Below, one piece after another: positions 1 through 64,000 of a stretch of DNA of 64,000 nt; the stretch's first letter is position 1; each line of letters begins with the position of its first letter. The translations under genes were made by a program, and so were the position numbers. Source of the DNA: Liolophura sinensis (lineage: Eukaryota; Mollusca; Polyplacophora; Chitonida; Chitonidae); assembly GCF_032854445.1 (NCBI RefSeq), contig NC_088303.1, positions 12,841,501 through 12,905,500 on the forward strand, read 5' to 3'. Below the pieces are notes generated by a model. The model had not been told where the DNA came from. It worked only from the letters and a program-made list of their open reading frames with translations, and searched no databases.

Positions 1-99
1 CATAAGTCAAATTTCGGTGATTGGTGTCATAGTCATTTTGGTGTCACATCAGTCATGGTTCAGTGTCACTTCAAACATATTTCAAGACGGCTCAAAGTT

Positions 100-325
100 G
101 AGTTTAACTATTTATTTCATCGATGTTTTATGCCCGTACTCAAGAATCTTTCACTTACGATGCTTATACAAATGTGGCCAGCATTATGGTGGGAGGAAAC
201 TAGGCAGAGCCTGAAGAAACTCTTGACCACCTGCAGGTTGCTGCAAGATCTTCCCATGTGCATGTGTATGACTGGAGAGGACGCCAGCATGAGCTAGACT
301 TGAACTCACACTGACTGCATTGGTG
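100..325 (-). mobile_element. SINE remnant, 'cataatgctgg' type
   Basis: The stretch reads 'gccagcattatggtgggagga', 'ctgcaggttgctg', 'gaggacgccagcatgagctagacttgaactcaca' and 'tgcattggtgaaa'. This is the reverse complement of the element seen more completely at about 39.69-39.90 kb. Diverged and without an intact tail. No gene was seen from 1 to 540. Confidence 0.6.
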
Positions 326-579
326 AAAAAGGTTGAGTTTAAAGAATCCTAAACATACACCTATCTATGTACAAGAAGTGTTTATATCAACAAGGGTTGC
401 TTGTTAATTTCCTTGCATTGACTGAAGTGTCACTTTCAGCCATGTTTTGGTTATATATGAAGTATAAGAGCATTCTATTGTACATATGTATGCTAGGGTT
501 TTTAAATCATACTGGACAAGTTTTTAGTCATATGATGAAGAGTCATTAGGTGCATGTACATATACTGTGTCTTCTTGTG

Positions 580-780
580 GCTGGCCGAGTGCATTCGGCC
601 AAAGTACCCGCTCACATTATATTGACACCAGACGAACCAGTCCTGTTTCACTGCTCTAACCTCTCGGTGCTGACTGCCTAGCGAGGCAGCAGCAAGTACC
701 ATTTTTGAAGTCACGTGTATGACCCGACCCAGGTTTGATCTTCAACTTAGAGGCGGATGCTCTCATCAATAGGCTACCAA
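580..780 (-). mobile_element. tRNA-derived SINE fragment
   Basis: Contains 'gctgactgcctagcgaggcagc', 'gacccgacccaggtttgatctt' and 'aggcggatgctctcatcaataggctacc'. Read on the minus strand the end resembles a tRNA head (A-box-like near 770, B-box-like 'gatcaaacc' near 735). It resembles the better copies at 2290-2580 and 5330-5675. Confidence 0.5.
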
Positions 781-975
781 AGCGACTCGTTTTCTTGTAG
801 CAGGATAGTCTCAACACTGACAATAATTTAAGTTTTGCAAAACTGGAACAGCAGGGATCAAACAGTGATTGGCCTGTTATACAACCTTGCCAATCTCCAA
901 TTCTTAGACAACAACAGGTCATGTCCTGCCTACAGCAGGTAGGATGACTGAGCACTATTGCACTCATTCTTAACT

Positions 976-2289: not shown

Positions 2290-2580
2290 AAAGAGTGAGT
2301 GAGTGAGTGTTTGGGGTTTAACGTCCTACTTAACAATTTTATAGTCATATGACGATGAAGGAGACAACTTACTTACTTACTTAAGGTAAGTAAGCCATCC
2401 TACTCGAACCATTATACTGATACGAGTCCACCAGTCGTTGCACTATCCCCTTAACGGTGAATGCCAAGCAAGGAAGTTACAACTTTTAAGGTCTTTTAAG
2501 GCGTGACCTGACCTAGGTTTGATCCTGGAACTACCGCCCCAAAAGCAGACGCTTTACCAACTGAGCCAGCCTCAGATCCA
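2290..2580 (-). mobile_element. tRNA-derived SINE (ggtttaacgtc type)
   Basis: Starts with a (gagt)n run and 'ggggtttaacgtcctac', has the body 'agtcatatgacgatgaagga', 'ccattatactgatacgagtccaccagtcgttgcac' and 'gccaagcaaggaagttacaactt', and ends 'gcagacgctttaccaactgagccagcc'. On the minus strand that end is a tRNA-like head with A box (tggctcagttggtaaagcg) and B box (ggatcaaacc), so the element is transcribed leftward. An internal 'acttacttacttacttaaggtaagtaag' is a small palindrome specific to this copy. It lies downstream of the MPV17-like gene. Confidence 0.8.
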
Positions 2581-2868
2581 GCCTCACGGCAAGGACAGAT
2601 CAACATCACATCAGACAGTAATACCTTGTAACACTGTTGACAGTGCCTTTCAATCAATGTCTGACGTAACAATGCAGTAAGTTCCTGCTTCACATTAGCC
2701 CCACCTAACCGGATTAAAAAAATATGTTGCCGTCCCATTACAGAACATCACAAACAACTTTTCTTTACACATATTGCACTTTTAATGTATACTTACGTAT
2801 TATTATAACATAAAACTAATGAGTTCATAAAAGATTTTACCTAACAAAATTTCCTAACAAAAGCATTG

Positions 2869-3747: not shown

Positions 3748-3749
3748 TG

Positions 3750-4485: not shown

Positions 4486-4493
4486 TGGACTAG

Positions 4494-5284
4494 GTGCTTG
4501 AACAGTGTTAAGTTTGACATTTTGTGTTCACAATTGTTTAAGCCAGTTGTTTTTGTAATTGAACAAGTCTTGTGTAAATGATAGTCCATCTAAATGGACT
4601 CAGTGTGCTATTTAAAAATTCTGAAATTCTTCGTAACATCCATGAATGACTCTGAAAAAGCATGACATGGATTTAAAAACTCCGATCTCCTTCCAACTTA
4701 AGGTAATCCAACTCACTTCCTCTGTCCATTTATATATAATTTTCCGGTGGAATCTCTAATGCTATCCTCTTAATTTACTACCCACATCAATGGAACTAAT
4801 TCACTTGCTACCTTGTGGTCACACTGACCGCTGGAGCTTCAGCGGTACTGATTGCCTTGCCGCAAACAGCCATTTTGAAGTGTCACATGACCTATTTCGG
4901 GGTTTAACATGCAACTGAGTTTAGGCATTGGCATCCTCAAGAAAACTATTTTATTTCCATTGTCATTTGCAAGAACAATTTTAATCTTTGTAATTTAAAC
5001 CAAACAGGCATAAAAAGAACGTGTACTTTTAGTGCAGGTTAGTTTGTGTGCAGTTATGCAGACTTCATTGAAATCGGCCCCAATGAGTTGGAGTGCGCAG
5101 ATCTGCAGCGACTTGTTTGAAAGATGGTGATGGACTCAGTGTTATGATGAATCTCAGAATATTAAAATAGCACAATGAGTCGATTTAGATGGACTATCAC
5201 TTACACAAGACTTGTTCAATAACAAAGACAGGTGGCCTAAACAATGGTGAACACAAAATGTCAAACTTAACACTGTTCAAGCAC
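4494..5284. mobile_element. Foldback element with long terminal inverted repeats (~800 bp)
   Basis: The left arm begins 'gtgcttgaacagtgttaag' at 4494 and continues through 'tttgacattttgtgttcac', 'gaacaagtcttgtgtaa' and 'gatagtccatctaaatgga'. The right arm, ending at 5284, is the reverse complement of these in reverse order, over about 125-150 bases each with some mismatches. The centre (about 4640-5120) has no ORF. It contains a SINE-like fragment around 4800-4910. This is the architecture of a non-autonomous foldback DNA transposon or long-arm MITE. No clear target-site duplication was seen. Confidence 0.75.
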
Positions 5285-5324
5285 TGAGACAGCTCAAAGA
5301 GACTGCTCATAGGCCAGTATACTG

Positions 5325-6185: not shown

Positions 6186-7599
6186 TGTAATTCACCTAAC
6201 TAACAGTTACTGCGAGTTTGACTGTGAATCACAGTAGCTGGTTGTCATTTCCAACTACAAACTAGTGTAAAAGTAAAACGTCATGTCACTTGACACAAAC
6301 GTACATGTCCTTTCACTTGAAGCCTATCACCAAACGACGAATATATGTGGTGTTTACTGGCCGTGACCATCGGCTGTGACACTGTCTTTCAGACAAATCA
6401 GGTTCCAACTCGCTCATAATATCACGCCATGATCCACGCCGTGTTAATCCTTCTGCGCAAAAGATCAGACCTAAGCTCGTACCTTTCATTTTGGTGTATA
6501 GTGCGGTAAAGGTACAAGTCTAGAGATAAGCAGAGCTTCTGCGACGGAGAGTGGTGCCAAGCACCGCGTAAACAACATGGAGGAACACAGATGAACTCGT
6601 TCCGAAATTGTTACTAACAATTTATTTTTAAAAAGTTTTGCAAAAAAGTGGCTTAAAAAGTAGAAGCAGATGAACAGTTTTATTCCTGCTGCAAAAAGCG
6701 ATTACATATACACGACGCCTAAGATTTGTACTGAAGGCAAAACTGGCAGCGTCAGATTTGGAGTGGAGCATGAATGAACTGGATCTGTGGTTGGCAGAAT
6801 GTTGTGAGTGCATGCACATGTACGTATATGCATTGCCTACCATTTTAGATTTTAAAACCAAATTTCTTTGGTAATGTTAATGCAAGATTTATGTTTAATT
6901 TTTGACATGAAGTTCTTACATTTGTTCTCACATTTGGCTTGCGGGAACCCTATATCAGTGTGTCTTTCATCATGAGTTTTTTTTATCAAATTTTCCCAAA
7001 AGGAAAGGTTGTTGCAAAGGCAGGGTTGCTGCATTTTTTGGTTACTGGCGTGCTCTATAGATGTTTATTGTAAAAAGTAGAATCTTCAATCATGTGATGC
7101 CGTAAGTACCACGCAACAGCAACTTCGACTTTACAAATCCTTAAAGAATTAATGTGCAGTATTTTGTCCTGTCAGTATTTCCCAAGGTTACTGTTGGAAG
7201 TACGAATTATACAGAAGCTCACAGTGTCACGTTATATAGTTAGATAGGTCACTCTCTGGTATGTAAATCTGTTAAAAGCAGTATGTATATATACATAAAT
7301 ATATATATATATATACACACACACATGAAGGGATGTAAATGTAAAATTTATGAGGTCTGCCTCTCTTTTTCATCCCAGTGTCTATGTCATAACAAGGCAC
7401 ATGTAATTTAGGGTAAAAGTAAGTGTCCGCTGAACCAAATCATGTCTATTGATTAGAAAGGCGGCACCACATGGCTTAGGTTATTCACCCTGTGACTTTG
7501 TGCATATGCCTGGATCTAGCTTTTGTACATTCAAGTGGTTTGACCAATATTGCTTTCAATACATACTTTCTGTTAAGCCTTAAATATTTTTGTCTTCAG
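6186..7599. other. Region between MITE and first coding exon of coiled-coil gene
   Basis: No gene recognised. A locally more GC- and CpG-rich patch around 6420-6600 is a plausible promoter or 5' exon for the coiled-coil gene that starts coding at 7667, but no transcription signal can be fixed. An (AT)n/(AC)n microsatellite lies at about 7280-7325. The acceptor 'tgtcttcag' at 7591-7599 shows that a non-coding exon must exist upstream. Confidence 0.4.
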
Positions 7600-13500: not shown

Positions 13501-16500
13501 TTAAGTTTATATCTTTTTTATTTTAAAAGATTTTGAAAAAAATGGGTTGGTTTATTATTGTTTGATTTTCTTGTTTATATTATAGTCGAGTACAGCATGT
13601 CGGTCCAGCAGTGCCAACAGGTTGCGACAACGCCGCCAGCTGCCGAAGGGCCCTCGTGAGGTTGTCAAGCCTGCTGAGGTTCATGTTTCAGACTTTTTCA
13701 TGCAGAATGGACCGACAGATGGAAGTAGCGCTGCTTCTAATAATGTGAATAAAGTAAGTATCAGTTGGCTATGATCATTAAGTACAGACCGTATTGGTTA
13801 ACTGTACATGTAGTGTCTTTATTTAGGATTTTGAATTGAACTCCTATATAAGTAACAAACCAATTAATAAATTAACCAGTGAAATTAGAATGAAGGTTCT
13901 GTGTATCTGTAATTACAGGGAATCACAGGTCTATATCAGTTCAGCAAGGAAAAGCAAAGTCAGAGACCAGAATCTGGGCAATCAGCACTCAGCTATGATG
14001 ACCCCAACAGATATAATCAGGTAAAAATTAAATATAATATTGTGAAAAGTGAAAATTAAATACCATAAGTAGATGGAAGTGATATCCCACCTCTCACTTG
14101 TCTGTATCTGCTACGACTCTTTTGTAGGGGACTTGCTGGCTAGCTCTGACTATATATCAAGCCCATGACCAGTGAGGTCGCATGTTCAAATCCACCTCTC
14201 ACTGATTCGGCTGGGCTTTAATTTCAGAGGTTTGTCAGCTGTGACTGTTGGTTTACTCCCTCGTCATTTGTCTCCTCCACCCTTAAACTTGCCTGCCCTC
14301 ATATATAAATTAATCATTTCTTGAGCTTGGCATTAAACACCATTCAGTCAGATCATAAAATATCTTTTTATTTTGAAATGTTTTTGTTTAATTTTTTATT
14401 TCGAATTTAAAGATGAGTTTGTGTAAACTTATTGTATCCACAGCTTATCACATGTAACAGAGCAGTATTGTGGGCAAAAATTTGGTCAGCGCACCTTAAC
14501 AGCCTGGACAGAGAGAGACTATTTTCATATATTAAATTCAAACTATAATCAGAGACACCAGATGGTAGCTGTTGAGGACAGTGCTTCTGCTGTAAAGCAG
14601 GAGGTGTGTCAGGTAGCTGTTGAGGGACAGTGGTTGTGCTGTAAGTCAGGAGGTGTGTAAGGTAGCTGTTGAGAGACAGTGGTTGTGCTGTAAGTCAGGA
14701 GGTGTATCTGGTAGCTGTTGAGGGCAGTGCTTATGCTGTAAGTCAGGAGGTATGTAAGGTAGCTGTTGAGGGACATTGATAGTGCTGCAAGTCAGGAGGT
14801 GTGTCAGGCATCTCTTGAGAGACAGTGGTTGTGCTGTAAGTCAGGAGGTTTGTCATGTATATGCAGCTGTTCTGTATCCAGGCTTTAGCTCCCCTGCACA
14901 GATCGTGTAAATTGATTCACATTGGGGGATTCCTGGTGAAACCTTCTGCCTTCCAAGTCGAGTCAACAAAGAATATCATATACCAATGTTTCCGCTATAT
15001 GATAGTCTGAACTGATGAACATCATATAGAAGGTTTGTTCATGTTAAGTTCTTGTATTTAACACATTACAAAGAAAAGATTTCAAGCTGTGTTATGTAGT
15101 ATAGCCACAGATATATCTGTGTTTGTTTTCAGCCGAAGCTGTTTGACACTCGCCAGGTGGTCCAGCAAACAGCACAGAGAAAATCCCGGCCTTTGAGTGC
15201 AGCCATTCCCAGAGAGCGTGGCAGACTCAACATGCGGCCCAAAAGTGCAGGTAGTTCTATTCTCTACACAAACCTACCACCTGACCTACACAAACTACAA
15301 CCTGACCTTCACAAGCTACCACCTGACCTACACAAACTACAACCTGACCTTCACAAGCTACCACCTGACCTACACAGCTCACCAGCTGACCTACACACAC
15401 TACGTGAACTACACAGACTAATCTGTGACCTACACATACCACCACAGAGAGTGTGACAGATTCAGCATTTGGCCCAGAAGTGCAGGTAGTTCTATTCTCT
15501 ACACAAACCTACCACCTGACCTACACAAACTACCACCTAGCCTGCGCAAACTACCACCTGACCTACACAGAGAACCACCTGATCTACACAAACTACAACC
15601 TGACCTTTACAAGCTACCACCTGACCTACACAGCCCACCAGCTGACCTACACACAATACCTGAACTACACAGACTAATCTGTGACCTACACATACCACCA
15701 CAGAGAGTGTGGCAGGCTCAGCATGCGTCCCAGAAGTGCAGGTAGTTCTATTCTCTACACAAACCTACCACCTGACCTACACAAACTACCACCTAGCCTG
15801 CGCAAACTACCACCTGACCTACACAGAGAACCACCTGACCTACACAAACTACAACCTGACCTTCACAAGATACCACCTGACCTACACAGCTCACCAGCTG
15901 ACCTACACACAATACCTGAACTACACAGACTAATCTGTGACCTACACATACCATCACAGAGAGTGTGGCAGACTCAGCATGCGTCCCAGAAGTGCAGGTA
16001 GTTCTATTCTCTACACAAACCTACCACCTGACCTACACAAACTACCACCTAGCCTGCGCAAAGTACCACCTGACCTACACAGACAACCAGCTGACCAACA
16101 CACACTCCCTGAACTACACAGACTAACCTGTGACCTACACATACGACTACCTGACCTACACACACTCCCTGAACTACACAGACTAACCTGTGACCTACAC
16201 ATACGACTACCTAACCTACACACACTCCCTGGACTACACAGACTAACCTGTGACCTACACATACGACTACCTGACCTACACATGCGACTACCTGACCTAC
16301 ACAGGCTAACCTGATCTACACAAACTATCACTTGACCTACACAGACTAACCCCTGACCTACAAAAACTATCACCTCACCTACACAGACTATCACTTGACC
16401 TACACAGACTAACCCCTGACCTACACATACCATAACCTAACCTACACAGACTACGATTTGACCTAGACAGGCTACCTCCCGACCTACATAGGCTACCACC

Positions 16501-27800: not shown

Positions 27801-30800
27801 TTGTAAATGAAAAAATGAAAAAAATGCTTAAGCAGTAATGAAATGATGTTTTGCTGGCATAAAATAGTAGTTTCACATAGCTCTGTACAAATCCTAGAGT
27901 AGAACATTGTGATGTGATGAGGTTAAGTTTCGAATATAACAAACCAAAAATCCATTACAGTGAACATGTAGGATGGATGTGGGTGATACACAAACCTACC
28001 AGAACTATAAATACATGTAGGATGGATATGGGTGATACACAAACCTACCAGAACTATAAATACATATAGGATGGGTGTGGGTGATGCACAAACCTACCAG
28101 AACTATAAATACATGTAGGATGAGTGTGGGTGATACACAAACCTACCAGAACTATAAATACATGTAGGATGAGTGTGGGTGATACACAAGCCTACCAGAA
28201 CTATAAATACCTGTAGGATGGGTGTTGGTGATACACAAACCTACCAGACCTATAAATACCTGTAGGATGAGTGTGGGTGATACACAAACCTACCATAACT
28301 ATAAATACATGTAGGATGGATGTGGGTGATACACAAACCTACCAGAACTGTAAATACATGTAGGATGGGTGTGGATGATACACAAACCTACCAGAACTAT
28401 AAATACATGTAGGATGGGTGTGGGTGATACACAAACCTACCAGAACTATAAATACCTGTAGGATTGATGTGGGTGATACACAAACCTACAAGAACTATAA
28501 ATACATGTAGGATGAGTGTGGGTGATACACAAACCTACCAGAACTATAAATACTTGTAGGATGAATGTGGGTGATACACAAACCTACCAGAACTATAAAT
28601 ACCTGTAGGATGGGTGTGGGTGATACACAAACCTACCAGAACTATAAATACATGTAGGATGAATGTGGGTGATACACAAACCTACCATAACTATAAGTAC
28701 ATGTAGGATGAGTCTTGGTGATACACAAACCTACCAGAACTATAAATACCTGTAGGATGGGTGTTGGTGATACACAAACCTACCAGAACTATATATACAT
28801 ATAGGATGAGTGTGGGTGATACCCAAACCAACCAGAACTATAAATACATGTAGGCTGGGTGTGGGTGATACACAAACCTACCAGAACTATATATACATAT
28901 AGGATAAGTCTGGGTGATACACAAACCAACCAGAACTATAAATACATGTAGGATGAGTGTGGGTGATACACAAACTTACCAGAACTATAAATACATGTAG
29001 GATGGATGTGGGTGATACACAAACCTACCAGAACTATAAATACCTGTAGGATGGGTGTTGGTGATACACAAACCTACCAGAACTATAAATACATGTAGGA
29101 TGAATGTGGGTGATACACAAACCTACCAGAACTATAAATACATGTAGGATGGGTGTGGGTGATACACAAACCTACCAGAACTATAAATACATGTAGGATG
29201 AATGTGGGTGATACACAAACCTACCAGAACTATAAATACACGTAGGATGAGTGTGGGTGATACACAAACCTACCAGAACTGTAAATACCTGTAGGATGAG
29301 TGTGGGTGATACACAAACCTACCAGAACTATAAATACATATAGGATGAATGTGGGTGATACACAAACCTACCAGAACTATAAATACATGTAGGATGGGTG
29401 TGGGTGATACATGAACTAACCAGAACTATAAATACATATAGGAGGAGTGTGGGTGATACACATAACCTACCAGAACTATAAATACATGTAGGATGGGTGT
29501 GGGTGATACACAAACCTACCAGAACTATAAATACATGTAGGATGGGTGTGGGTGATACATGAACCAACCAGAACTATAAATACTCGTAGGATGAGTGTGG
29601 GTGATACACAAACCTACCAGAACTATATATACATGTAGGATGGGTGTGGGTGATACACTAACCTACCAGATTTATAAATACATGTAGGATGCGTGTGGGC
29701 GATTCATGAACCAACCAGATTTATAAATACATGTAGGATGGGTGTGGGTGATACATGAACCAACCAGAACCATAAATGCGTGTAGGATGAATGTGGGTGA
29801 TACACATAACCTACCAGAACTATAAATACATGTAGGATGGGTGTGGGCGATTCATGAACCAACCAGAACTATAAATACATATAGGATGAATGTGGGTGAT
29901 ACACAAACCTACCAGAACTATAAATACATGTAGGATGAGTGTGGGTGATACACAAACCTACCAGAACTATAAATACATGTAGGATGCGTATGGGTGATAC
30001 ACTAACCTACCAGATTTATAAATACATGAAGGATGGGTGTGGGTGATACATGAACCAACCAGAACTATAAATGCATGTAGGATGAGTGTGGGCGATTTAT
30101 GAACCAACCAGAACTATAAATACATCCAGGATGAGTGTGGGTGATACATGAATCAACCAGAACTATAAATACATGCAGGATGAGTGTGGGTGATACACAA
30201 ACCTACCAGAACTATAAATACATGTAGGATGAGTGTGGGCGATTCATGAACCAACCAGAACTATAAATACATGTAGGATGCGTATGGGTGATACACTAAC
30301 CTACCAGAACTATAAATACATGTAGGATGGGTGTGGGCGATTTATGAACCAACCAGAACCATAAATACATGTAGGATGAGTGTGGGTGATACACAAACCT
30401 ACCAGAACTATAAATACATGTAGGATGGGTGTGGGTGATACATGAACCAACCAGAACTATAAATACATGTAGGATGGGTGTGTGTGATACACAAACCTAC
30501 CAGAACTATAAATACATGTAGGATGGGTGTGGGTGATACATGAACCAACCAGAACTATAAATGCATGTAGGATGAGTGTGGGTGATACACAAACCTACCC
30601 GAACTATAAATACATGTAGGAAGGGTGTGGGTGATACACAAACCTACTAGAACTATAAATACATGTAGGATGAGTGTGGGTAATACACAAATCTACCAGA
30701 ACTATATATACATGTAGGATGGGTGTGGGTGATACATGAACCAACCAGAACTATAAATGCATGTAGGATGAGCGTGGGTGATACACAAACCTACCCGAAC

Positions 30801-33800
30801 TATAAATACATGTAGGAAGGGTGTGGGTGATACACAAACCTACTAGAACTATAAATACATGTAGGATGAGTGTGGGTAATACACAAACCTACCAGAACTA
30901 TAAATACATGTAGGATGGGTGTGGGTGATACATGAACCAACCAGAACTATATATACGTAGTATGAGTGTGAGTGATACACAAACCTACCAGAACTATAAA
31001 TGCATGTGGGATGAGTGTGGGTGATACACAAACCTACCAGAACTGTAAATACCTGTAGGATGGGTGTTGGTGATACACAAACCTACCAGACCTATAAATA
31101 CATGTAGGATGGATGTGGGTGATACACAAACCTACCAGAACTATAAATACATGTAGGATGGGTGTGGGTGATACACAAACCTACCAGAACTATAAATACA
31201 TGTAGGATGGGTGTTGGTGATACACAAACCTACCAGAACTATAAATACATGTAGGATGAGTGTGGGTGATACACAAACCTACCACAACTGTAAATACCTG
31301 TAGGATGGGTGTTGGTGATACACAAACCTACCAGAACTATAAATACATGTAGGATGGGTGTGGGTGATACATGAACCAACCAGAACTATAAATACACGTA
31401 GGATAGATGTGGGTGATACATGAACCAACCAGAACTATAAATACATGCAGGATGAGTGTGGGTGATACACAAACCTACCAGAACTATATATACATGTAGG
31501 ATGGGTGTGGGTGATACATGAACCAACCAGAACTATAAATGCATGTAGGATGAGTGTGGGTGATACACAAACCTACCCGAACTATAAATACTTGTAGGAT
31601 GGGTGTGGGTGATACACAAACCTACTAGAACTATAAATACATGTAGGATGAGTGTGGGTAATACACAAACCTACCAGAACTATAAATACATGTAGGATGG
31701 GTGTGGGTGATACATGAACCAACCAGAACTATATATACGTAGTATGAGTGTGGGTGATACACAAACCTACCAGAACTATAAATACATGTAGGATGAGTGT
31801 GGGTGATACACAAACCTACCAGAACTATAAATACATGTAGGATGTGTGTGGGTGATACATGAACAAACCAGAACTATAAATACTCGTAGGATGAGTGTGG
31901 GTGATACACAAACCTGCCAGAACTATATATACATGTAGGATGGGTGTGGGTGATACATGAACAAACAAGAACTGTAAATACATGCAGGATGACATAAATA
32001 GATGGACATGTAAGATGAGTACATCGGCATGGTGTGCCCCTGTCTCGCATACAGCACAAAGTGTCCTCTATGTGTTTCAGCTGGTGGGTCAGTTTGATGT
32101 GGTGGTCAACTGTAGTGGGATGAGGAGCAGGTGGCTGGTCAATGACCCTCTGGTCTATCCTGTTAGAGGTCAAATCATCAAGGTGAGCTGCAATTGAGAA
32201 GTTTTTCATATGCGTGCTATCTGTTTCTTGTGCATACTGACTGAAACCTATGCATACTGACTGAAATCTATGCATGTTGACTGATACCTGTGCATGCTGA
32301 CTGATACCTACACATGCTGGCTCTTTCTTATGCATGCTGACTGTTTCTTATGCATGCTGACTGTTTTGTATGCATGCTGACTGTTTCTTATGCATGCTGA
32401 CTGTTTTGTATGCATGCTGACTGTTTCCTATGCATAATGACTGATACCTATGCATGATACCACGTTGAGAGCTGAGAGTTCGTTGATGTATTAAAATGTA
32501 CATGTAATGTACTACTTCATGGTGTGGAGGTATGTTTATTGATTGTTTCTGTGTTGAAAGGTTTATAAAGATAAAGTGATGATAAAGTGTTGCCTTTTCT
32601 TTTTTAGATTAATGCTCCTTGGATTAAGAGTTTTATCTACACAGATGATGATGCTTACATTATTCCACGGTGAGTATGCTTGTTCATATTTCACCCTGAT
32701 GTGTTAGTCATTGTGATGGTGTAACATCTTCATATTGGGATCAACAGTATTCTTTCATGCTTTAATACACTGGTACTTCCTTACCAGTGGCAGTCAGCAT
32801 ATTGGGGGTCAGGACACTATAAAAGTGTCCTTTTCAAGGCATTCCAGTGAGGCATCATGGGAGTCAGTTTATAATGTTAATTAACAAAGTAACATACTTT
32901 ATGTCTTACAGAGGTGAGGATGTGGTGTTGGGTGGAGTGCGTCATACAAATGATTTCAGTACAGAAATCCGAGAACAGGATAAGCAGGGGATTCTGGACA
33001 GGTGTGCCCGACTAATCCCCAGTGTCAAGGTACACATATTTTTCAGTGTCTTCAGTGTCAAGGTATGCCTGTCCTTGCTTCAGGCTAATTCCCAGTGTCC
33101 AGGTACGCATCCTTACTTCAGACTAATCTCCAGTTTGAAGGCACATATTCAGGTGACTCCCCAGTGTCAACGTGTGCCTATCCTTGCTTCAGGCTAATTC
33201 CCAGTGTCAAGGTACTCATCCTTACTTCAGACTAATCTCCAGTTTGAAGGCACATATTCAGGTGACTCCCCAGTGTCAAGGTATGCCTATCCTTGCTTCA
33301 GGCTAATTCCCAGTGTCAAGGTACTCGTATCTTCACTTCAGGCTACTCCCCATTGTCAAGGTTGTTGTACCCTTGCTTCAGGCTACTCCCCAGTGTTACT
33401 AATCCTCAGTCTAAAGGTACTTGTATCATCACTTCAGGCTAATCCCTAGTGTTAAGGTACTCGTATCATCACTTCAGGCTAATACCCAGTGTCAAGGTAC
33501 GTGTATCCTCACTTCAGGCTACTCCCAAGTGTTAAGGTACATATAACCCACTCAAGCTACTCCCCATTGTCAACGTACTTGTGTCCTTGCTTCAGGCTAT
33601 CCGCCTTAAACTGCATTTGTGACGATCTGAGGAAATAAGTTCTAAAGAGATTGGTAAAATTTGCAAGTTAATTGAGATGTTTAAACTTTTTGAGACAATA
33701 CACCGGGAGTATCTTTTGTTGAACAAAAGTCGGAATGGAGTGTGCAAGCCTAATGGAAAGTGAATAATATGTAAAACTCTTTCCTGTAGAGTGAATAAAG

Positions 33801-52850: not shown

Positions 52851-52854
52851 GCTG

Positions 52855-53605
52855 TGTCTTTTAAAGCTGAGAGACAAAATCTGTCCCTGCTGGGTGACAC
52901 AGGGTGGCTTTTTGTGTCTAGGAGAACTGAGAGACAAAATCTGCCTACATCCCGGGAGAATCTTGCTGGTACTGGGTGGTTTGTTGTGTGTTATAAAACT
53001 GAAAGACAAAATCTGCACACATGTTGGGAGAAACTTGTTCGTAGCAGAATTAAGAGACAAAATCTGCATGCATATTGGGAGATGCTTGCACCGGATGGTT
53101 TGTTGCGACTAGCAGGACTGTGAGATAAAATCTGCATGCATGCTGGGAGACTCTTGCTGGTACAGGGTGGTTGTTGTGTCTAGCAGAACAGAGACAAAAT
53201 CTACACGCCTGCTGCGAGACACCTGCTGGTGCTGGATGGTTTGTTGCACCTAGCAGAACTGAGAGACAAAATCTGCATGCATGCTGGGAGACACTTGCTG
53301 GTACTGGATGGCTTGTTGTGTCTAGCAGAACTGAGAGACAAAATCTACACGCATGCTGGGAAACACTTGCTGGCACTGGGTGGTTGCTGCGTCTAGCAGA
53401 ACTGAGAGTCAAAATCTGCACTCATGCTGAGAGACCCTCGCTGGTACTACGTGGTCTGTCCAGCAGAACTGAGAGACAAAATCTGCAGGCATGCTGGAAG
53501 AAACTTCTTGGTACTGGGTGGTTTGTGTCCAACAGAACTGAGAGACAAAATCTGCACTCATGCTGGGAGACCCTCGCTGGTACTGAGTGGTTTCCACTTG
53601 TGGCC
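52855..53605. repeat. Minisatellite, ~70-bp unit, ~10 copies, downstream of PHKB stop
   Basis: The unit contains 'gcagaactgagagacaaaat', 'ctgcatgcatgctgggagac' and 'cttgctggtactggatggt'. It lies within the likely 3' UTR or flank of PHKB. All long open frames over it on both strands are repeats of the same motif. Confidence 0.9.
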
Positions 53606-53620
53606 ATCAACAAGAACAAG

Positions 53621-53655
53621 TACACACGTCCTCTGTTATCAGATGCATCTCTGTC
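53621..53655 (-). repeat. Duplicate of the C-terminal coding end of PHKB in its 3' UTR
   Basis: 'cctctgttatcagatgcatctct' here matches 'cctctgtcatcagatgcatctct' at about 53719-53741, which encodes the Glu-Met-His-Leu-Met-Thr-Glu-Asp stretch before the CVLS box. The offset is exactly 90 bases. The copy lies beyond the TAG stop and would not be translated in the normal protein. Confidence 0.85.
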
Positions 53656-53699
53656 CAGCAAGCCTATCCTGTGGCCATGACATAAGTCATTAATAAGAT

Positions 53700-56600
53700 C
53701 TAAGACAATACACACATGTCCTCTGTCATCAGATGCATCTCTCCATCTAGAAGGTTTCTAACCACAGCCTTGGAGATGTAGGCAGTGGTGCCATGTTTGA
53801 TGTTGGGTGGAGTGTTATAGAAGCGGTTCATGTCATCTTGCTTCTCCTCGCCCTGAAGACGACTTCGGTCTCTCTGAAACTCCTCAAATGCTTCTCCAAT
53901 TATCTGAAATAATGGCACAAAACAAGACATAAATGCTTCCTGAGCATCCTGGTGGCCCATCCACGCACCATGTTCAACATGGGGCTTGGGTTATGTCAGT
54001 GGAGCTTATAGGGTGCATGTGACATATCTGGTGAATGTACATAAGCCAAGGTACTAAACCCATTCATATGAAGTGCCTATCACACAACTTAGTTACTTAA
54101 CTTTCTATTTGTTTTGGCATTTACATATCGATAGAACAATGCAAAAACTTTCCCAATCCTTTCAGATGGAACAATAAATGCCTAAACCTCATTTTAAACC
54201 AATAAATTTATTTATCTATTAGGGTTTTAAACAATACATGCACCTCAATGGATAAGGGGCTGTCAAAGGGATTCAAACACACAACCTTAGTTTTCAAGGA
54301 TTTGTTGTAGGGATTCCAACACAAGCCTCACTGGACAAGGGGCTGTCAGAGAGATTCAAACACACTACCTCATTGGTCAAAGGTCAGCCGTAGGGATTCA
54401 AACACACAACTCCATTAGTCAATGGTGACATAAGGATTCAAACAAGTAACCTCAATGGCCAAGGGTATATCACAGGGCTGTAAACACACAACCTCACTGG
54501 TCAATGGCAAACTCATGTATGTGGGCTTACCAAGGTTTGCTTTTACACTTATGTTTTGATTTTACCTTGTCCATTTCCACTGCCTTCTGGAATTCCAGCT
54601 CAGGATTTCTCCTCAAAATGGTGGACACAACCATGAAAGTCTACCAATGCAGAAAGGAAACTGCATGCGATTATAACAAGAATTCTATCCATATAAACAG
54701 AATACATAGAAGAAATAACATTAAGGAAGAAGTTACAACTGTGGGCCAAATTATAATCCCATACATTTGATTGGTGTTTTTACGCCGCACTCCCAAAATA
54801 TAATTTCGCTTATAAGATGGGGGGCCAACATTATGGTGGGAGAAAACCCACAACCATCCATAGATTGCTGAGGAAGCCAGTGTCAGCTGGACTTGAACTC
54901 ACAGTGACTGCATTGTTTGTGCGTCTGCACAGTGAGGCCACAAAGGCCCCAATTGCATATTTAAGGGACTGAATTAATAATTTAGCATCATATTCAAGAA
55001 CTTTTCACTTTGATGAATTTAGCCAGGTTTATGTTTGAAGAGCCGTGTAAATCAGTGCCTTTTGTTTTGTGCCAGAGAAACCTCGTCATTACGTTCCAGA
55101 GCTGAATTCTAATTATCCTATTAGACGGGGATCATTCAACTATCTTACTGAGCATCTGCTCCATCAACAGTGAGAAGAATAAGTGAACATTGCAACGTAC
55201 CTCAACGACAATCTGCCTGTAGGAAGGGTCAACTATCTTACTGAGCATCTGTTCCACCAACAGTGAGAAGTTCAGCTCATACATTGTCATATCGGACAGA
55301 GTCGGTTGCTGAAAACATAAAATTGACTTTCAATGTAAATGAAACACAGATACAACCTAAAAGGGTTAAAAAAAAAAAAGAAAAAAAAGACTAGGCTTTC
55401 CTTGATGCAGGTTTCTTTTCAGACAATTTTTAATTGAAGAAACCCCAAGTGTGCAAACTGAGGTTTTTTTCAATGGGAAACTGAGCTTTGTGAAGAGAAA
55501 ATGATTTTTATTTCTTTTTTGGAAGGAAATGGGAGAGAAGGGGTTGAAGGAAGGTTAAATATGTGGATTTAATCTCTTTCTTGCACAATTTTTCTACTTG
55601 GTACCCTCAAGACTAGGCATGTGCCACTGCAAGAGCCTGGTAGAAGATCCTCAATAGGAACTTGAGGAAAAATTGCTTAATAAAAAGGGGAGAAACTCAA
55701 AGGATGCCACATGAATGAAAATTCATGAGATTTGTCATTATCAAATAGAGCTTGACAAATCTAAGGTTTTTTGTCCAAACGTACATATTTTGAGACATTC
55801 AGGTCAAAAGCAGAACAATATCTGTTCCATCAGGATAACGCTGTTATCATATTCCCAGAACATCACACAAATTTCTGGCTGATTAATAATGAACCCAAGT
55901 TACAGAACATTACAATACACATTACTCTGTATACTGCATGCTAAAAATGCAGGCCATGAAATTTGGGTGGCTGACGTAACCAAAATATCAATTACGGGTT
56001 TCAAGCCTTGAGTGTTATATTCCTGAGTATTTTTATTTTCTTTTGAAGATTACTAATTACTTATATAGTTAGCTGCTTGTAGTGTGCGTAATATCCAACT
56101 GGTTTATGGAACCCTCGCCATCCCTGTCTGATAAATTTGGTTTCCACAGAGTGAAATGATATAACCAGTGACACGAGGGAATGTCAACAATGACCAGCTC
56201 ATGGAAAGCTGTTGACTGGAGAAAGTTTAACTTCAGTTCAAACTCCGCCCACAGCTAGCTCACCAAGAGCACAAAACATGACTGATGAATGCCGTCAGCT
56301 AGCATATGTTGTGTACATAACAAACAAGACATGTCGTGCAGATGCTCATGGCGGGAAAGGTGAATAGTACTTTCTTAGCCAAAAGTTATAATATTTTGTT
56401 TTAACACAGGAGCTTTCTCTAGGTGGTTTATAAACCTTTCCTGATGGCACAAATAACAGGAGACAGCGCAGATGCATTGACCTGATTAATAAATAGATCA
56501 CGGACCTGAACGAAATTTGGTCAAAGCAGAAAGCTGCCGACTGCATTTTGTGCATAATGGCAATGAGTTCAAGTCCAGCAGAACACTGAGCAGCATCATG

Positions 56601-59600
56601 GCACCAAATGACAGCTTTCGTCTACAGGTGTATTAGCTCATGCGTTTGTCAACGGACAAGTATTAAAGCCTGGAAAGCGGTAGCTGTAACAACTGACGCA
56701 ACTTCTATTTTGTGGTTGCTGTTGTGATATCACACGCTGGATATGGCCGGCAACCTTGTGTGGGTAACTCTGATATACCTGTTGAGCTCTACTCAGTTCA
56801 AGCGCTGCATTTGCAGGAATGTTCCCAGGGACAGATCAGCATAATCAATTTATCAGACTGCGCAATTACACTCCATGTAAACGACACACAAACGATCATT
56901 TTGTTTGAGCCAAATTTCAAGGCCTGAAATGCTCTTCTTGCTCCCTTTGTTGGGCAATCTATTGAAGATGATTATACTCTGCACATTTCCTCACAGGCTA
57001 CTGCAGTTTACATATGTCAAGTAGTATGTTTTTTAAACATGTAGTTTTAAGCTCAAATTTAGTTCAATTGGATCAGGTCCCGTGATTATAAAGTGATCTT
57101 AGATTAAAGTAAAAATTTAAATCATTGAACTTTGTATGTTCCTTCCCACTTATATGTATATTTAAGCTGAAATTTGTTTTACAATAACTCACTCAATATT
57201 TACAATGTCAATACTGACATTGACATTTTTTAAGTTTTAAAGTGGTTTGAAATTGTGACTTATGTGTAAAGGGATACAGAATCGATTCTGATTGGCTGGT
57301 GTGAGTGATGAGCTAATCCAGACTATACTCAGCCTAAGCTGAATTTTAGGTATGGTACATTTATTCAAACGTGACCAAGGCTGCAAGCTTATTGCTTCAA
57401 AATCCCGGGCCGACAGGCGAAATGTGGGACCCCTGTGTCAAGCTAATCAAAACTAAAAATTTTAGGTCTGGAGGCGATTTACGAAAGAAATAAAGCTTTT
57501 TTATAGAATTACTAGAAGCTTTGTAAACTGATGACTGTACATGTAGTGTAACTTAGGTTTGGTGGCAAGGCTACCAAAGAGCTCGCCTGCAGGAGACACA
57601 TGAATGCAAAACTTCAGCTCAATACATAAAGTAATGAAATTGTGAATTTGGTAATTTATGGTAATTAATATGTACACAGAGCATCAGCTCTGATCTCAAT
57701 ACCTGCAGTACTTTTTACGATACCACACCTAATATTTTGTTCAATATTGCTTTCTCTGTTATTGGATGCCGACCCTCAAGGTATGACTTAAGCTACAAAT
57801 GATCTATGTTAATGTCTTCAATGCAGTAATGACACTTTTCAGGAGCCTGTAGACTGACCTGGGGGAGGAGGTAGCCTGCCACTTTGATACCACCAGGGGT
57901 CCTCTCTAATGTCTCCCAAACGTTGTCATAAAAGTCCTTTGGTACTCGATTCAAAGCTCCGTCCAGCTGCCTCTTTCTCAGCGGTGTTCTACAAACATCA
58001 GTTTGACACTATCAATTTTTGCCAAAAATTGTTAACAGGCCTAAAATTTTTTAAGTTTTTATGAAAATAATTTATTTGGTACTTTTAAAATATCTGTAAA
58101 ATGTCCATAAAAATGTGTATGTCTCATTATTTTAAGAACCTCAGAATATCATTGGTTAAAGTTTTAGTGATGCTGTTGACAGGCAGATGGATTAACCAGG
58201 GCCACTTTGATGCCACCATGTTCCAAAATCTAAGGCAAATAAGCCATGGAATTTTGAACAGCTTATAGATTTGTGTGGTTTATTTCTCATGTCAGTCAAA
58301 AATCGCACACCAGTACGCAAAAATAGAAAAATGTATAAACACATCACCATGTATTTGCAATTCACCCTTATGATTTTGGTTGTATCTTTACTTGTATGAT
58401 TACAGAATGTATATTGAAGCACTGCAAAGCTAACAAATCAGAAGCTGCTCTCCATATATAAACCATGTGAAGTTACCACGTCAATTTTTAAATACCTCTT
58501 CAAAAATTGATATGAATGCATTTAAAGACATTAGCCTGCAATGCTATCACTGGGGCTTTACTGGATATTGGAGATCACATTTGCTAGCAATACTGCTACT
58601 GCTACTGTCTTATGTGTTCAGAGATGAAAAGCATAGTGCTGGCAGATCTCGACTTGTTTTCAACAGAACAGAGCATTGGCATCATTTTTATGTCTTCTTC
58701 TCCTTTAAGGGTGCAGGAAACCAGAGTGCCCAAGACAAACCACTGACCTTTGGCAAGTCATCTACAAATTTCTCATTTTGTGATATATAGCTTTGAACCT
58801 GAAGCTTGTGCGTCCTAACAATTCAAAGGCAAACACCTTAACCACTCGCCCAGGGTTCACTTCCATCAGGTTTTTCACATTTTGTTACAATGTGAGACGT
58901 ACCTGGTGTACCCAGACTCTCCTTGGCAGCCTGTGTGAATGCAGTGTATGGCTATGAGGCGACACTTGACATGGTGAGGGGAGAGGTTACTGCTATCTTT
59001 GAACCTCCCCAAATTGACAATGTGAGACGTACCTGATGTCCCTCTCCCTGGCAGTTCGTGTGAGTATGGCTATGACACTTGACATGGTGACAGGAGAGGT
59101 AACTGCTATCTTTGAACCTCCCCAAATTGACAATGTGAGACGTACCTAATGTTGCTCTCCCTGGCAATTCGTGTGAGTATGGCTATGACACTTGACATGG
59201 TGAGGGGAGAGGTAACTGCTATCTTTGAACCTCCCCAAATTGACAATGTGAGACGTACCTGGTGTCCCTCTCCCTGGCAGTCCATGTGAGTATATCTAAG
59301 AGAAGATGCTTGACAGAGTGAGGACAACAAAAGTTACTTATCTCTAAATCTCTCCAAATTGACAATTTGAGACGTACCTGGTGTGCCTCTCAATGCGATT
59401 GGTGTGAGTACGGCTATGAAATGACACTTGATATGGTAAGGGGAGAAGCTACTGCTATCTTTGAATCTCCCCAACTCGACAATGTGAGATGTTCCTGGTG
59501 TCATTCTCCCTGGCAGTCCCTGTATGGCTCTGAGAGGACAATTGACTGGTGAGGGTTACTACTATCTTTGAATCTCCCCAAACTGACAATGTGAGACATA

Positions 59601-62600
59601 CCTGGTGTCACTCTCCCTAGCAGTCCGTGTGAGTATGGCTATGAGGTGACGCTTGACATGGTGAGGGGAGAGGTTACTGATGTCCACATGTCTACCAATC
59701 TCAGCCAGTTCTATCTGCATCGCATGAACAAACCACCTATACAAACATAGAACACTTGCACTGACTCAGAAAACACCAACGTATACATGTACGTGAACTG
59801 AAAAAAACACAAATAACAAGTGCAACTGACGTCACTTTTCTTTATGACACTGCATTCCATTACAGTTTACAGTTTACTGTGATGGCAGCTGACCATATCA
59901 GTGCTGCCTGCCGTAGACATGGTTTATCCTTGCACAGCTTTATATACATGCAGAAGAGTTTTCTTTTTTGCAGGTATGTACGGACAAATCGTTTCTCGCG
60001 TGCTGGTAAGGATATATTGAAGTTCACACCCAGGGTTTAAATGCCCATATGTCCTCAACACATAGATAACTTATACACTGACAGGCTGGGCCAGAAATAG
60101 TAGGAAGGGATCATTATCTCCAATACTTCTGTGAATATTGGGATGATACACTGTCAACAAATGACACAATCGTCAGGATGGTTGGTAGGATGATACAACG
60201 GTGAGTCAGAGGATGGCGTGATGATACAATGGTGAGTTAAAAGATGGTGTGATGATGCAATGGTAAGTCAGAAGCTGGTGGGATGGTGCAATGGTGAGTC
60301 AGAAGATGGCATGATGATACAATGGTGAGTTAAAAGATGGCGTGATGATGCAATGGTAAGTCAGAAGTTGATGTGATGATACAAAAGTGAGTCGTCAAAA
60401 AATGTTATAAAGAAAACCATACCCAATCCTAATTTTGAGAATGCCATCAAAGAGTTCTGGGGCTGTGCCTATGAGTTTGCCAATGTAGATGATTAGCTCT
60501 TGCTGAAGCACGGCCTGGCAGATATCGTATGGTAAGCACTTCCCGTACAGGATGTTCTTGATCTCATTGGGGGAGACAGGTTTGTCTACAACTTCCTCTT
60601 CGTGACCAAACACACCTAATGTCACCTGAACACAAGTTACCAGTAGTTACAGGACAGTCTAAATAACACAGGCTCGAAAACAATACTGTGTCTCAATGTC
60701 AAAAGAAAGTTTACCAGCAATATCACTATGTTGTTTCATCCAGAATTCTAGAATTATGGACGAAATACAGAACTGTCAAAACGATACTTTTTTTATTACT
60801 TTCTTCAGCACAAAAATGGTTTTATCTAAGTAGGTAAAGACCATATACACATGGTAGTGGAGAATCCCTGACTAATCTTCGAGCATTAGGGCTTATCCCA
60901 CTGTACTTACCTGCTTGCCCCTGACCAGGATGGAGGTGATAGAAGGTGCAAGGCTGTCCACCAGCTTACCCAGAAGAGCAGAGCAGAATCGCACAACCCA
61001 CCAGTGACGGTGCAGTCCAGCCTTGTGGGAGAGGGCCTCTAGGCGCTGAGTGATGGTGGAGTCCTCGATCCTGTAGTGCGCACCCTCACGATTCAGCAGG
61101 ATGTGCAGGATCTGAGCCTTCATCTTGTAGCTGTCTGTCATCCGCAGGGCATGGACCAGCTCTACCACAGATCGGTGCTGCATGTCCTGTAGAGGAAGGC
61201 AGAGGACAAGCAACTCATCAATAAGGTAGCTGGAATGCAGGTGACTTGTCAGATGATCACACATGACTAATATCTCACACATGACCAGTATCTCACATGA
61301 CTTGTATGTCACACATGACCTGTATCACAAATACATGCATGACTTACCTGATAGACAATGGACTGCTCTTCCTCTACTTCTCCGTAGTTGGCCACTTCTG
61401 ACAGACTTCTGAATGCGCTTGGTGTTGACTTCTCCTGGAAGCTGATAAAAATACTCGGGTCCTCTACTGAATGGAGGAAGTCCAGGTGTTCCACACAGGC
61501 ACTGGAGATCAGAGACTGTCAACAGAGACCAGAGGTCATCAGCTGAGATCAGAAGCTGTCAACTGAGCTCACAGACTGTCAACAGAGATCAGAGACTAAC
61601 AACAGAGATAAGAGTCACCAGAGATCAGAGATCAGTAGATAATGAAGAGGGAGTTAAACAAGAAGTGACTATCACACACACAATGCTATTGGGTTAATGG
61701 CTTTGTAACTCTGAAATTCTAATTTGCTCTTTTCAGTTGGCTGCTTTAGAAACCAGAAATCTGACCTGTTCCATCTTAAATTTATGTGGGAAGGTAGTTC
61801 ACCTCAATATAAACCCAAATGCCAAACGTGAAATCCTTGTCTGATCAATGTTGCGTTAGCCTTGTTCGTACGGGGTCACAAATCCAAACAACAAATGAAT
61901 GGGTGGTCTGAGGAGATGGACACATTGAGAGATAGACATGCTGATCATACATCCCTCAGTACTATATATCACAGAGATAACAAAACGGAAATTAATGCTA
62001 ACACTTGTTAACACTTCTGCCGAGTGATTCTTAAAGATGATGAGCTTATCAGCAGAATTTTATCTTACACCGAATACTTAATACTGAATGCTTATCTATC
62101 TAGAACTGTTAGCCTAATGATGATGCTTCTTCCAATAACCACTGCCTCTCAACCACCAGGTTGCAAGGTTGTAACTGACCCCCATTATTAATTTTCAAAT
62201 ATTTGTCTATCCTTTATTGAAGCATATTATAGTTCAAAAACCCAAATCTTGACAGTTACAAAATAAACCCTACCAGTGATGACCTGTGAGATGATTGTCC
62301 AGATAAAGGACTGTTGGATGAAGTAAATGAAGAGCTTACCTGTAACCTGGCTGTTCTGACTCGCACACCGTCCACTTCTCCTCTCTTCAGCTGAGACAGC
62401 AGCTCCAAATACTCCCCAAAGTGAGAACCTCTGACAAACAAGTCAAATCTTGTCACATTGATTCCTTTTTACTACAATTTTATACTCAAATAAGCAGTAA
62501 GAAATTAACAAGATTTATGAGCGTACAGAGTTGGGTTCCCGTCAGGTTCTCAGTTCAGATAAAACCACTAGCAGAATGGAATATGTATTCCAAAAATCTG

Positions 62601-64000
62601 CCAAAATAATCCATTCATGTACATTCACACTTTACAACATCCGGTCCAAACAAAAGCACATCAGGGGCGAGTTTCATAAAGTGCATGAAGCGCGGCATGC
62701 ACACAGCTACTATGGCAACATAATACTTACAGTACTGGTTGCAGAGAAAGTTGCATGCTCGCAGCGCTGCACATGCTTTATGAAAGAGGCCCCAGTTCAA
62801 CTCCTCTAGTAGCTGCCATGGCAACAGAATCTTACAGTTCTGGCTGCCATGGAAGCATAGCTAATTAAAGTAATGCCCAGGATATTAGTGTAATCTTAAT
62901 GATGTAACTGGTAAATTTAGACCAATTAGAAAATTCTATCATCTCACACAGTAAGATGTCAGAATTTCTTATAGTAACATTTTTTGTCAAGAACGTCCAT
63001 TTTTATTTTCTCATGAAAGACGAGAAGAATAAAGTACAAGGAGGCCTACATTTACACACTGAATTTAAACTTCAATGGGCAGACCCCTGAAATTCAGGAC
63101 TTCTTCAATAAAGCTTTAATACATACATGTAAATAACTAAATCAACCTGTGGCAATTTTCCTCACCACAAGTGACCTTCCCCAAGAATCATATCAAATAT
63201 GAATTGGCCTAAAAAAGCTTGTGGTTACCGTTCTTACCTCATATTACTCTCCCTGAGAATCATACAGAATGTGGGTCGGCCATCTAGCTTCCAGCATTTC
63301 GACAGGAATGCTAGATCATTCTGAAATATGGCAAGTTAATGTCTTGCAGATAGTGCAATGTTGCAATGATTGTCATTTCCTGACATTCCCACAAAGTTGT
63401 ATACCTATATGTTTATGAAATCATAGTTTTATTCATTTAAATACTTTTTTATTTCATTATTGTTTAATTTTCACTCATACGACGGTGGTCAGTTTTACGA
63501 GTGTTGAAAAAACACTGACCTCTAGCTTTTTATTGACAAACTCACGCAACATTTGACATACAGATATGCACACCCCATCAGTGAAATACAAGCAGTCTTC
63601 AATGAAGATTAGGCCGCACAAACAACGCAGAGACTCAACCTACACACTAAGCACATACCAGTCTCTCGGTAACTCAATTCCCAATTCTCAGTGACTCACC
63701 TGACACACTAATCACATACATGTACCTGTCTCACTGTAACTCACCTCCCAATTCTCAGTGACTCACCTTACACACTAATCACATACCAGTCTCACAGTAA
63801 CTCAATTCCCAATTCCCAGTGACTCCCCTTACACACTAATCACATACATGTACCTGTCTCACTGTAACTCACCTTCCAAGTCTCAGTGACTCACCTTACA
63901 ATTATCAATGACCAGAGAGAGATCCTGTGACAGGTAAAAGTCACTGTCCTCAAACAGCAGAGGATAACAGAGGACGGTTTTCCCACACACTCTGTACACC
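53700..64000 (-). CDS. PHKB: Phosphorylase b kinase regulatory subunit beta, C-terminal half (continues past right edge)
   Basis: Beta subunit of phosphorylase kinase, the (alpha-beta-gamma-delta)4 enzyme that activates glycogen phosphorylase. Eleven exons read leftward with consistent phases: 64000(cut)-63895, 63320-63238, 62430-62340, 61515-61348, 61186-60911, 60625-60423, 59736-59602, 57988-57859, 55308-55201, 54640-54566 and 53903-53700, about 526 residues. Diagnostic segments are [96 protein letters not shown], and FYNTPP near the end. These match beta rather than alpha, which has a different C-terminus (CAMQ). The protein ends Cys-Val-Leu-Ser, a CaaX box fitting farnesylation at the membrane. 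The N-terminal glucoamylase-like domain lies outside the window. Several introns carry copies of the neighbouring exon ends. The stop codon is TAG at 53702-53700. Confidence 0.94.
54240..54500. repeat. Degenerate tandem array, ~40-bp unit, ~6 copies, PHKB last intron
   Basis: Units such as 'attcaaacacacaacctcac' followed by 'tggtcaaggg' and 'ctgtcagagg' lie between the last two coding exons. Confidence 0.75.
54760..54950 (-). mobile_element. SINE fragment in PHKB intron
   Basis: 'ggtgtttttacgccgcactcccaaaata', 'ggggccaacattatggtgggagaaaac', 'gctggacttgaactcacagtgactgcattg' matches the reverse complement of the copy at 39.69-39.90 kb. Confidence 0.7.
55136..55177 (-). repeat. Partial duplicate of the adjacent PHKB exon
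   Basis: The 42-base segment 'tcaactatcttactgagcatctg...caacagtgagaag' is nearly identical to 55229-55270 inside exon 55201-55308 (offset 93), with about two differences. It sits in the intron just past that exon's donor and lacks the exon's own 3' end. Confidence 0.88.
55320..57074. other. PHKB intron sequence, no recognised feature
   Basis: Long AT-rich intron part with a poly-A rich segment at 55370-55390. No exon, SINE head or tandem array found. Short open frames such as 56712-56927 lack support. Confidence 0.45.
57075..57275. mobile_element. Diverged relative of the MITE at 21.34 kb
   Basis: 'cccgtgattataaagtgatctta' and following 'aatttaaatcatt...tatgttcc...aagctgaaatttg...aagtggtttgaaattgtgact' follow the order of the element at 21337-21562. 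The right inverted end is degraded. Confidence 0.6.
57989..58880. other. PHKB intron; possible SINE-related fragment at 58.69-58.86 kb
   Basis: Mostly plain AT-rich intron. 'tttaagggtgcaggaaaccagagtgcccaag' and 'cctttggcaagtcatc' resemble fragments of the repeat near 4.1 kb. No coding exon. Confidence 0.4.
58890..59680 (-). repeat. Tandem array made of the 3' part and donor of PHKB exon 59602-59736
   Basis: Six further copies of the exon's last ~80 bases plus donor ('...caccag|gtacgtctcacattgtc') follow the true donor, at about 115-130-base spacing. The copies still encode variants of '[13 protein letters not shown]' in one frame, and each is preceded on the minus strand by 'caaagatagcag', an acceptor-like AG. 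Plus-strand markers of each unit are 'gacaatgtgagacgtacctgg' and 'cttgacatggtgaggggaga'. Confidence 0.92.
60165..60400. repeat. Minisatellite, ~30-bp unit, ~8 copies, PHKB intron
   Basis: Units such as 'gatggcgtgatgatacaatgg' with 'tgagtcagaa' lie just 3' (minus sense) of exon 60423-60625. No match to the exon itself was noticed. Confidence 0.85.
61516..61640 (-). repeat. Short array derived from the acceptor junction of PHKB exon 61348-61515
   Basis: On the minus strand the exon begins 'gttgacag|TCTCTGATCTC'. The preceding ~120 intron bases repeat 'gttgacag' / 'gttgttag' followed by 'tctctgatctc' or 'tctgtgagctc' about five times at ~22-base spacing. The true acceptor is the copy nearest the coding sequence. 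Confidence 0.8.
61641..62339. other. PHKB intron, no recognised feature
   Basis: AT-rich sequence between exons 62340-62430 and 61348-61515 with nothing further identified. Confidence 0.45.
62431..63237. other. PHKB intron with a short dispersed-repeat-like part
   Basis: 'ggggcgagtttcataaagtgcatgaagc' and 'catgctttatgaaagaggcccc' are an inverted pair about 115 bases apart (62664-62800), compatible with a small non-autonomous element. Otherwise plain intron. Confidence 0.45.
63470..63620. mobile_element. Dispersed repeat fragment
   Basis: 'ttcactcatacgacggtggtcagttttacgagtg', 'acatacagatatgcacaccccatcagtg', 'cagtcttcaatgaagattaggccgcac' resemble the fragment at 4.04-4.29 kb. Confidence 0.5.
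63640..63898 (-). repeat. Tandem array carrying the donor junction of the PHKB exon at the right edge
   Basis: The exon ends 'aattgtaag|gtgagtcactgag' (donor at 63894). The intron then repeats 'gtgtaag|gtgagtcactgag' and 'gtgagttacagtgagac' about three to four times, with units of roughly 80 bases. On the plus strand the markers are 'ctcagtgactcaccttaca' and 'ctgtctcactgtaactcacc'. Only about the last six to nine exon bases plus the donor are shared. Confidence 0.8.

Follow-up and report, generated by a model that had tools for sequence, protein, structure and literature searches.

Tandem arrays spanning splice junctions in the chiton Liolophura sinensis and their resemblance to amphioxus mirages

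Genes and tandem arrays of the window

The window, by which we mean the whole 64,000-nt stretch of DNA that was analysed, comes from the chiton Liolophura sinensis, whose assembly was published under the name Liolophura japonica before the species was corrected (PMC12441733). It carries three genes: an uncharacterised gene, a DAO-type FAD oxidase gene and the gene for phosphorylase kinase beta (PHKB) (Table 1). An initial annotation of this locus had listed seven sites at which tandem repeats were held to derive from exon ends. Our site-by-site check upheld five of the seven (15.2–16.0, 33.0–33.6, 58.9–59.7, 61.5–61.6 and 63.6–63.9 kb) as tandem arrays across an exon/intron boundary, four at donors and one at an acceptor, and it bore out the recurrence of such arrays in three unrelated genes and on both strands. 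Window junctions were called by eye and with a script, and 40-bp windows centred on the junctions were compared with 800 bp on either side. The five confirmed sites scored 23.5, 24.0, 24.5, 32.0 and 36.0, and the cross-gene null quantiles are 19.3 (99.5%) and 26.0 (99.9%).

Table 1. Genes, exons and tandem arrays in the 64,000-nt window
Feature	Position	Strand	Details
Uncharacterised gene	about 15-19 kb	+	predicted
Predicted exon, uncharacterised gene	15133..15250	+	open frame with AG/GT ends; last ~40 nt in repeat unit; no Pfam match
Donor-spanning array	15211..16204	+	256-bp unit, ~3.7 copies by TRF; 3 downstream junction copies aligned
DAO-type FAD oxidase gene	24.8-35.7 kb	+	PF01266 in exon 32081-32182, E 0.0016, below curated cut-off; otherwise by reading
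Array in oxidase gene, no called junction (counter-example)	27964..31991	.	49-bp unit, 82 copies; TRF
DAO-type oxidase exon	32912..33029	+	donor at 33030; no PDB match
Donor-spanning array	33012..33599	+	units ~36-41 bp, 13 copies
Further arrays without called junction, examples	33903-34827, 53042-53593		TRF
PHKB gene	64-53.7 kb	-	5' part beyond window
PHKB exon	63895..64000	-	donor 63894; read as upstream part of PHKB, exon assignment by reading
Donor-spanning array	63628..63912	-	unit ~53-67 bp, donor 63894
Acceptor-spanning array	61505..61631	-	20-bp unit; exon start 61515
Intronic array, not junction-derived (counter-example)	60183..60393	.	31-bp unit; TRF
PHKB exon	59602..59736	-	donor 59601; last ~80 nt in repeat unit; no Pfam match of its own
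Donor-spanning array	58961..59679	-	113-bp unit, 6 copies
Copy of exon-interior sequence	55136..55177	-	42 bp; source about 55229-55270
Last PHKB coding exon	53703..53903	-	ends CVLS then stop; no donor
Tandem copy of PHKB coding end	53620..53660 (approximate ends)	-	3' flank

The unit of the array at 15.2–16.0 kb comprises about 40 nt of exon end together with the donor at 15251. Its start in Table 1 includes the authentic junction copy (the TRF start is 15264), and the 256-bp array is nested in an array of ~21-bp units that reaches 17969. The shorter units at 33.0–33.6 kb take in the donor at 33030 and some 20 nt from the end of its exon.

The remaining two sites on the list proved to be duplications that leave splice junctions out. 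At 55.1–55.3 kb, the 42-bp copy sits 23 nt inside the intron and reproduces the interior of the exon, namely the stretch between 70 and 28 nt upstream of the donor at 55200; the junction is absent from it, and a junction copy is therefore ruled out. The duplication at 53.6–53.7 kb is real, but what it repeats is the coding end of PHKB rather than a splice junction: the last 67 residues of the protein align to residues 1028–1093 of the 1093 in 8jfk_B (phmmer, E 2.9e-17), and the donor that the script had flagged at 53715 was rejected, as no donor lies there. The C-terminus of the chiton protein reads CVLS and that of the solved beta chain CLIS; we take the CVLS end to be CaaX-like.

With 53715 set aside, 4 of 19 donors and 1 of 17 acceptors in the window are spanned. 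TRF reported 70 rows in the window, and 13 further arrays with a TRF score >100 were not seen at any called junction. In the oxidase gene, the 82-copy array occupies the greater part of an interval between called exons.

Anatomy of the junction arrays

Nine junction arrays, from the window and elsewhere, were aligned in a search that ran downstream only, and in each of them 3 to 17 junction copies extend from the authentic one into the intron. When both sides were searched, in the chaperonin and myosin genes described below, the best copy lay downstream at all 8 donors. Both types of boundary, donors and acceptors, are affected, and each of the nine aligned arrays repeats the exon end of the gene in which it lies. 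Although the units contain AG and GT signals, as would those of a mobile, introner-like element that brought splice signals with it and was amplified after insertion, this dependence on the host exon renders such an element extremely unlikely, and the one unit used as a query, a 316-bp piece of the PHKB array with 113-bp units (58961..59679), had all four of its genome matches (4/4) at its own locus. Collapsed or misjoined repeats are a more mundane source of apparent arrays, tandem arrays being error-prone in assemblies. However, the assembly is HiFi-based according to the available part of its report (PMC11068029), the aligned copies differ by substitutions, and equal anatomy is seen at many separate loci, all of which makes an assembly artefact very unlikely indeed.

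In all but one of the 17 donor-spanning arrays we scored the copy donors, 101 altogether, with a generic donor/acceptor matrix rather than one trained on this genome: 50 copies fall below the score of the authentic donor, 39 match it and 12 lie above it. In 15 of these 16 arrays, the authentic donor scores no lower than its copies do on average. The 12 stronger copies are restricted to four arrays, of which three lie in the window, and inner donors of these four arrays might be in use. A function of the repeated donors as redundant or regulated splice sites kept by selection is highly unlikely, given the number of weaker copies and the way in which the units mirror the exon end of whichever gene they lie in. 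GT is kept at 136 of 140 copy positions in the nine arrays, compared with 1921 of 2076 positions in other columns, which is in the direction that selection would produce, but the difference is small, the copies are non-independent, and the donor 9-mer as a whole (558 of 621 positions) is kept no better than the other columns. By eye, the inner copies of three of the nine arrays carry common variants that the authentic copy lacks.

Frequency in sampled genes

Junction arrays are not confined to the locus of the window. The initial annotation had suggested a genome-wide process, and other loci are indeed affected: across four gene families with predicted boundaries, 13 of 207 donors (6.3%, interval 3.7–10.4%) are spanned by a tandem copy. 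This figure becomes 12 of 207 when we leave out L085, a post hoc case: its donor was placed at position 117 by eye in a second reading, with the array already known.

The first part of the sample consists of 9 chaperonin-family and 14 myosin regions. Its 96 donors and 101 acceptors were identified from the reading frame, GT/AG and a consensus score, likewise from a generic matrix, rather than from RNA. The families were chosen regardless of arrays; one repeat of an exon end (C1:72,038 kb) had come to notice before the chaperonin regions were taken. For the chaperonin family (PF00118), we used the 9 regions with at least three exon hits (76 rows) and omitted four loci of one or two rows, and the myosin regions (84 rows) were picked for compactness, with six other loci and the outer exons of several genes omitted. 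Eight of the 96 donors are spanned at a threshold of 18, which a little under 1% of windows pass by chance; one of them, MY_C2 2803, reaches exactly 18.0, which is short of the 99.5% null quantile (19.3), and may be chance. Acceptor arrays were found at MY_C2 2646 and MY_C1_67 852, as well as at 61515 in the window, and the rate in the chaperonin-family and myosin regions is 2 of 101. A third acceptor candidate there, MY_C1_26 6293, probably reflects a pair of alternative exons and was not counted. Two hits in the myosin gene L015 (C1:26.64 Mb), at 5194–5299 and 6290–6386, are two copies of one exon, likely alternative exons and hence a whole-exon tandem duplication.

The second part draws on 118 of 132 kinesin rows (those with several stops or fused exons were dropped) and on 22 of the 30 kinase windows listed among 138 rows. 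Strict rules yielded donor calls in 111 of these 140 exon-end windows and relaxed rules in 134; the denominator of 111 used for the rate is the strict set with L057 added and L129 removed. These windows add five further, separate donors that are spanned (L046, L062, L088, L145 and L085). The hits L046 and L129 fall in a single kinesin array and enter the count once. L057 no longer counts as a junction array: on re-reading, its donor lies at position 30 and the array begins only after it. At L046/L129 (C11:27.413 and 27.415 Mb), the kinesin exon end lies in the array and again ~1.7 kb downstream, which is why the exon shows up as two hits in a domain search.

The donor rate in the window is higher than that in the sample (P 0.04), as is to be expected of a window singled out for such arrays. 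The difference between donors and acceptors is not firm (8/96 vs 2/101, P 0.054; 13/207 vs 2/101, P 0.16). Over 11 gene regions (nine of the chaperonin family and two window genes), tandem copies cover between 0 and 55% of the sequence.

Coverage and founding events

The initial annotation had further proposed that splice junctions are preferred as seeds. This part of the proposal finds partial support at donors, with reservations set out below, and no clear support at acceptors. On the donor side, tandem-copy coverage is 3.8% in the exon, 60–25 nt upstream of the junction, then 8.0% on the donor itself, 10% at +25–50, 13–18% at +55–400 and 31% at +405–800. The same bins, taken outward from the acceptor, give 2.2% in the exon, 3.0% at the acceptor and then 3.3, 5.1–12.6 and 28%. 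Coverage in the sampled introns therefore rises away from donors and acceptors alike; we found no peak at the junctions, where array coverage is lower than in intron interiors.

Counts of founding events give a different picture for donors. The 66 complete introns of the sample (61,943 bp) hold 25 array families, 18 of which touch no junction; 5 families span a donor and 2 an acceptor, and uniformly placed founders would yield 1.89 of each. With a looser threshold, the families number 31, and the same counts of 5 and 2 compare with 2.71 expected each, whereas TRF gives 4 donors and 2 acceptors with 0.67 expected each. Donor-spanning arrays account for 6 TRF rows (5 loci) in 112 kinesin/kinase windows (1.28 expected) and, in 111 windows searched without gaps and with corrected donors, for 4 arrays (1.47 expected, or 1.69 at the looser threshold). 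Pooled, the donor excess is 2.7x (9 vs 3.36, P 0.008), rising to 4.6x with TRF (9 vs 1.95, P 0.0002) and falling to 1.8x (8 vs 4.40, P 0.08) with the looser threshold and MY_C2 2803, the weakest case, removed. For acceptors in the 66 introns, no clear excess over uniform seeding was found (2 vs 0.67–2.71). The size of the donor excess thus depends on the method, and the merging of intronic arrays, together with the longer recognisability expected of the coding edge copy, would inflate the ratio; we therefore treat the excess as suggestive. In the 66 introns, array 5' edges lie near donors oftener than 3' edges lie near acceptors, a pattern that is less clear in the TRF edge bins.

Resemblance to known systems and a possible origin

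No named system matching these arrays had been known to the initial annotation. However, by analogy with what is described in the available parts of two reports on amphioxus, the chiton junction arrays match mirages, which are minisatellite-like tandem duplications of exon/intron boundaries in Adh3, globin, TnC and PGBD5 genes (PMC3087553, PMC3902484). According to the same portions of text, mirages have units of 10–160 bp, involve both boundary types and often keep AG/GT (PMC3087553), the edges of their clusters escape homogenisation, and the authors infer that regular splicing is undisturbed by them (PMC3087553, PMC3902484). Boundary-spanning tandem copies, AG/GT signals and the involvement of donors as well as acceptors are thus shared, as far as the available text goes. 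The chiton arrays, known from sequence alone, differ in that they occur in a mollusc and in many genes, with units of 20 to 256 bp and at ~6% of sampled donors, whereas the amphioxus reports, in their available parts, concern single genes. It is this scale in a mollusc that would be new, and the donor preference as well, if it holds. The titles and abstract openings listed from the open-licence literature yielded nothing on such arrays in chitons or other molluscs, which does not imply their absence from print.

Intron gain by tandem duplication (ATP2A1; potato RdRp), as outlined in the available part of its report (PMC4974935), likewise involves a duplication that carries splice signals, but the chiton arrays sit in existing introns. 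Ordinary intronic minisatellites share their period range and head-to-tail structure with the non-junction arrays of the same introns; the chiton junction units differ from them in including coding sequence and a splice site.

On balance, the arrays are probably best accounted for by the frequent birth of intronic minisatellites combined with tolerance of those duplications that span a donor. The introns of this chiton carry many tandem duplications throughout their length, as the sample shows, and some founders, of about 20–250 bp, cross a splice donor, as the structure of the arrays shows. The arrays may then expand into the intron by slippage or unequal exchange. Such alleles would survive because splicing would keep to the authentic donor, which stands at the array's upstream edge, and the downstream copies, with donors mostly equal or weaker, would be removed with the intron. 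Coding constraint would hold the exonic half of the edge copy, and the array might for that reason be recognisable for longer than purely intronic ones.

The donor event counts, which exceed uniform seeding, speak against this account, as do the four arrays with stronger copy donors. Tolerance alone predicts donors not above expectation and acceptors below it, yet acceptors are at or slightly above expectation, in numbers that are tiny. The constrained edge copy would by itself create some donor excess, and its slower decay could explain part of the apparent donor preference. The excess of 1.8–4.6x is also what would be seen if splice donors were preferred birth sites, whether through transcription, U1 binding, R-loops or the GGTRAGT sequence itself, with the arrays spreading into the intron afterwards. 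We regard this alternative as possible but doubtful, in view of the missing coverage peak at junctions, the lack of a clear excess at acceptors, the predominance of families that touch no junction and the shrinking of the excess under the looser threshold once the weakest case is removed. With such arrays at ~6% of sampled donors, the lengthening of introns, the tolerance of up to 17 decoy donors beside the real one and the possibility that donors are mutational hot spots become questions open to direct counting from an annotated genome and RNA reads.

Recurrence of the donor motif across the genome

We searched the whole genome (609,464,459 bases in 632 contigs) for the donor word MAGGTRAGT and found 33,494 occurrences, with 1,909 tandem pairs at a period of 20–50 (5.7%). 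The corresponding proportions are 2.3% for the reversed word (553/24,251), 2.4% for a composition-matched word (667/27,864) and 3.2% for the reverse of the latter (975/30,714). At a period of 51–81, the donor word forms 2,485 pairs (7.4%) and the reversed word 625 (2.6%). Tandem recurrence of the donor 9-mer per occurrence is 1.8–2.9x that of the control words, which favours preferred birth at donors, but the counts are of matches rather than loci and are not a tally of true donors, and the control words come from all DNA, not from introns alone. For three of the four words, the Markov expectation is greater than the observed count. Sense and antisense occurrences of GTRAGT in introns number 35 and 13 (25 and 12 as clusters), a small set that includes one junction array.

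Among the matches listed, 100 donor pairs resolve into 13 loci in C1:0.5–5.5 Mb, where the matched word has at least 3 loci (P 0.04). At 4 of these 13 loci, the 5' edge is such that the first perfect copy stands at the end of a protein-matching exon, again in keeping with preferred birth at donors. The four exons match ankyrin repeats, a helicase, an iron-hydrogenase-like protein and alpha-L-fucosidase; the closest solved relative of the helicase exon is named 'helicase-like protein', and we presume the gene to be Mot1/BTAF1. A fifth locus has an open frame of 71 residues that hits no family, and the edge is not reached or is ambiguous in the other 8.

That donors are hot spots of minisatellite birth throughout the genome, with founders starting in the last tens of exon bases severalfold oftener than elsewhere in introns, is a tentative proposition that we consider rather improbable. 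If it were true, transcription or splicing would mark gene structure by mutation, and introns would lengthen from their 5' ends.

If the matches are listed in order of position, the density of donor-motif pairs in the first 5.5 Mb of C1 (100/1909) is about six times the genome average, perhaps a chromosome-end effect.
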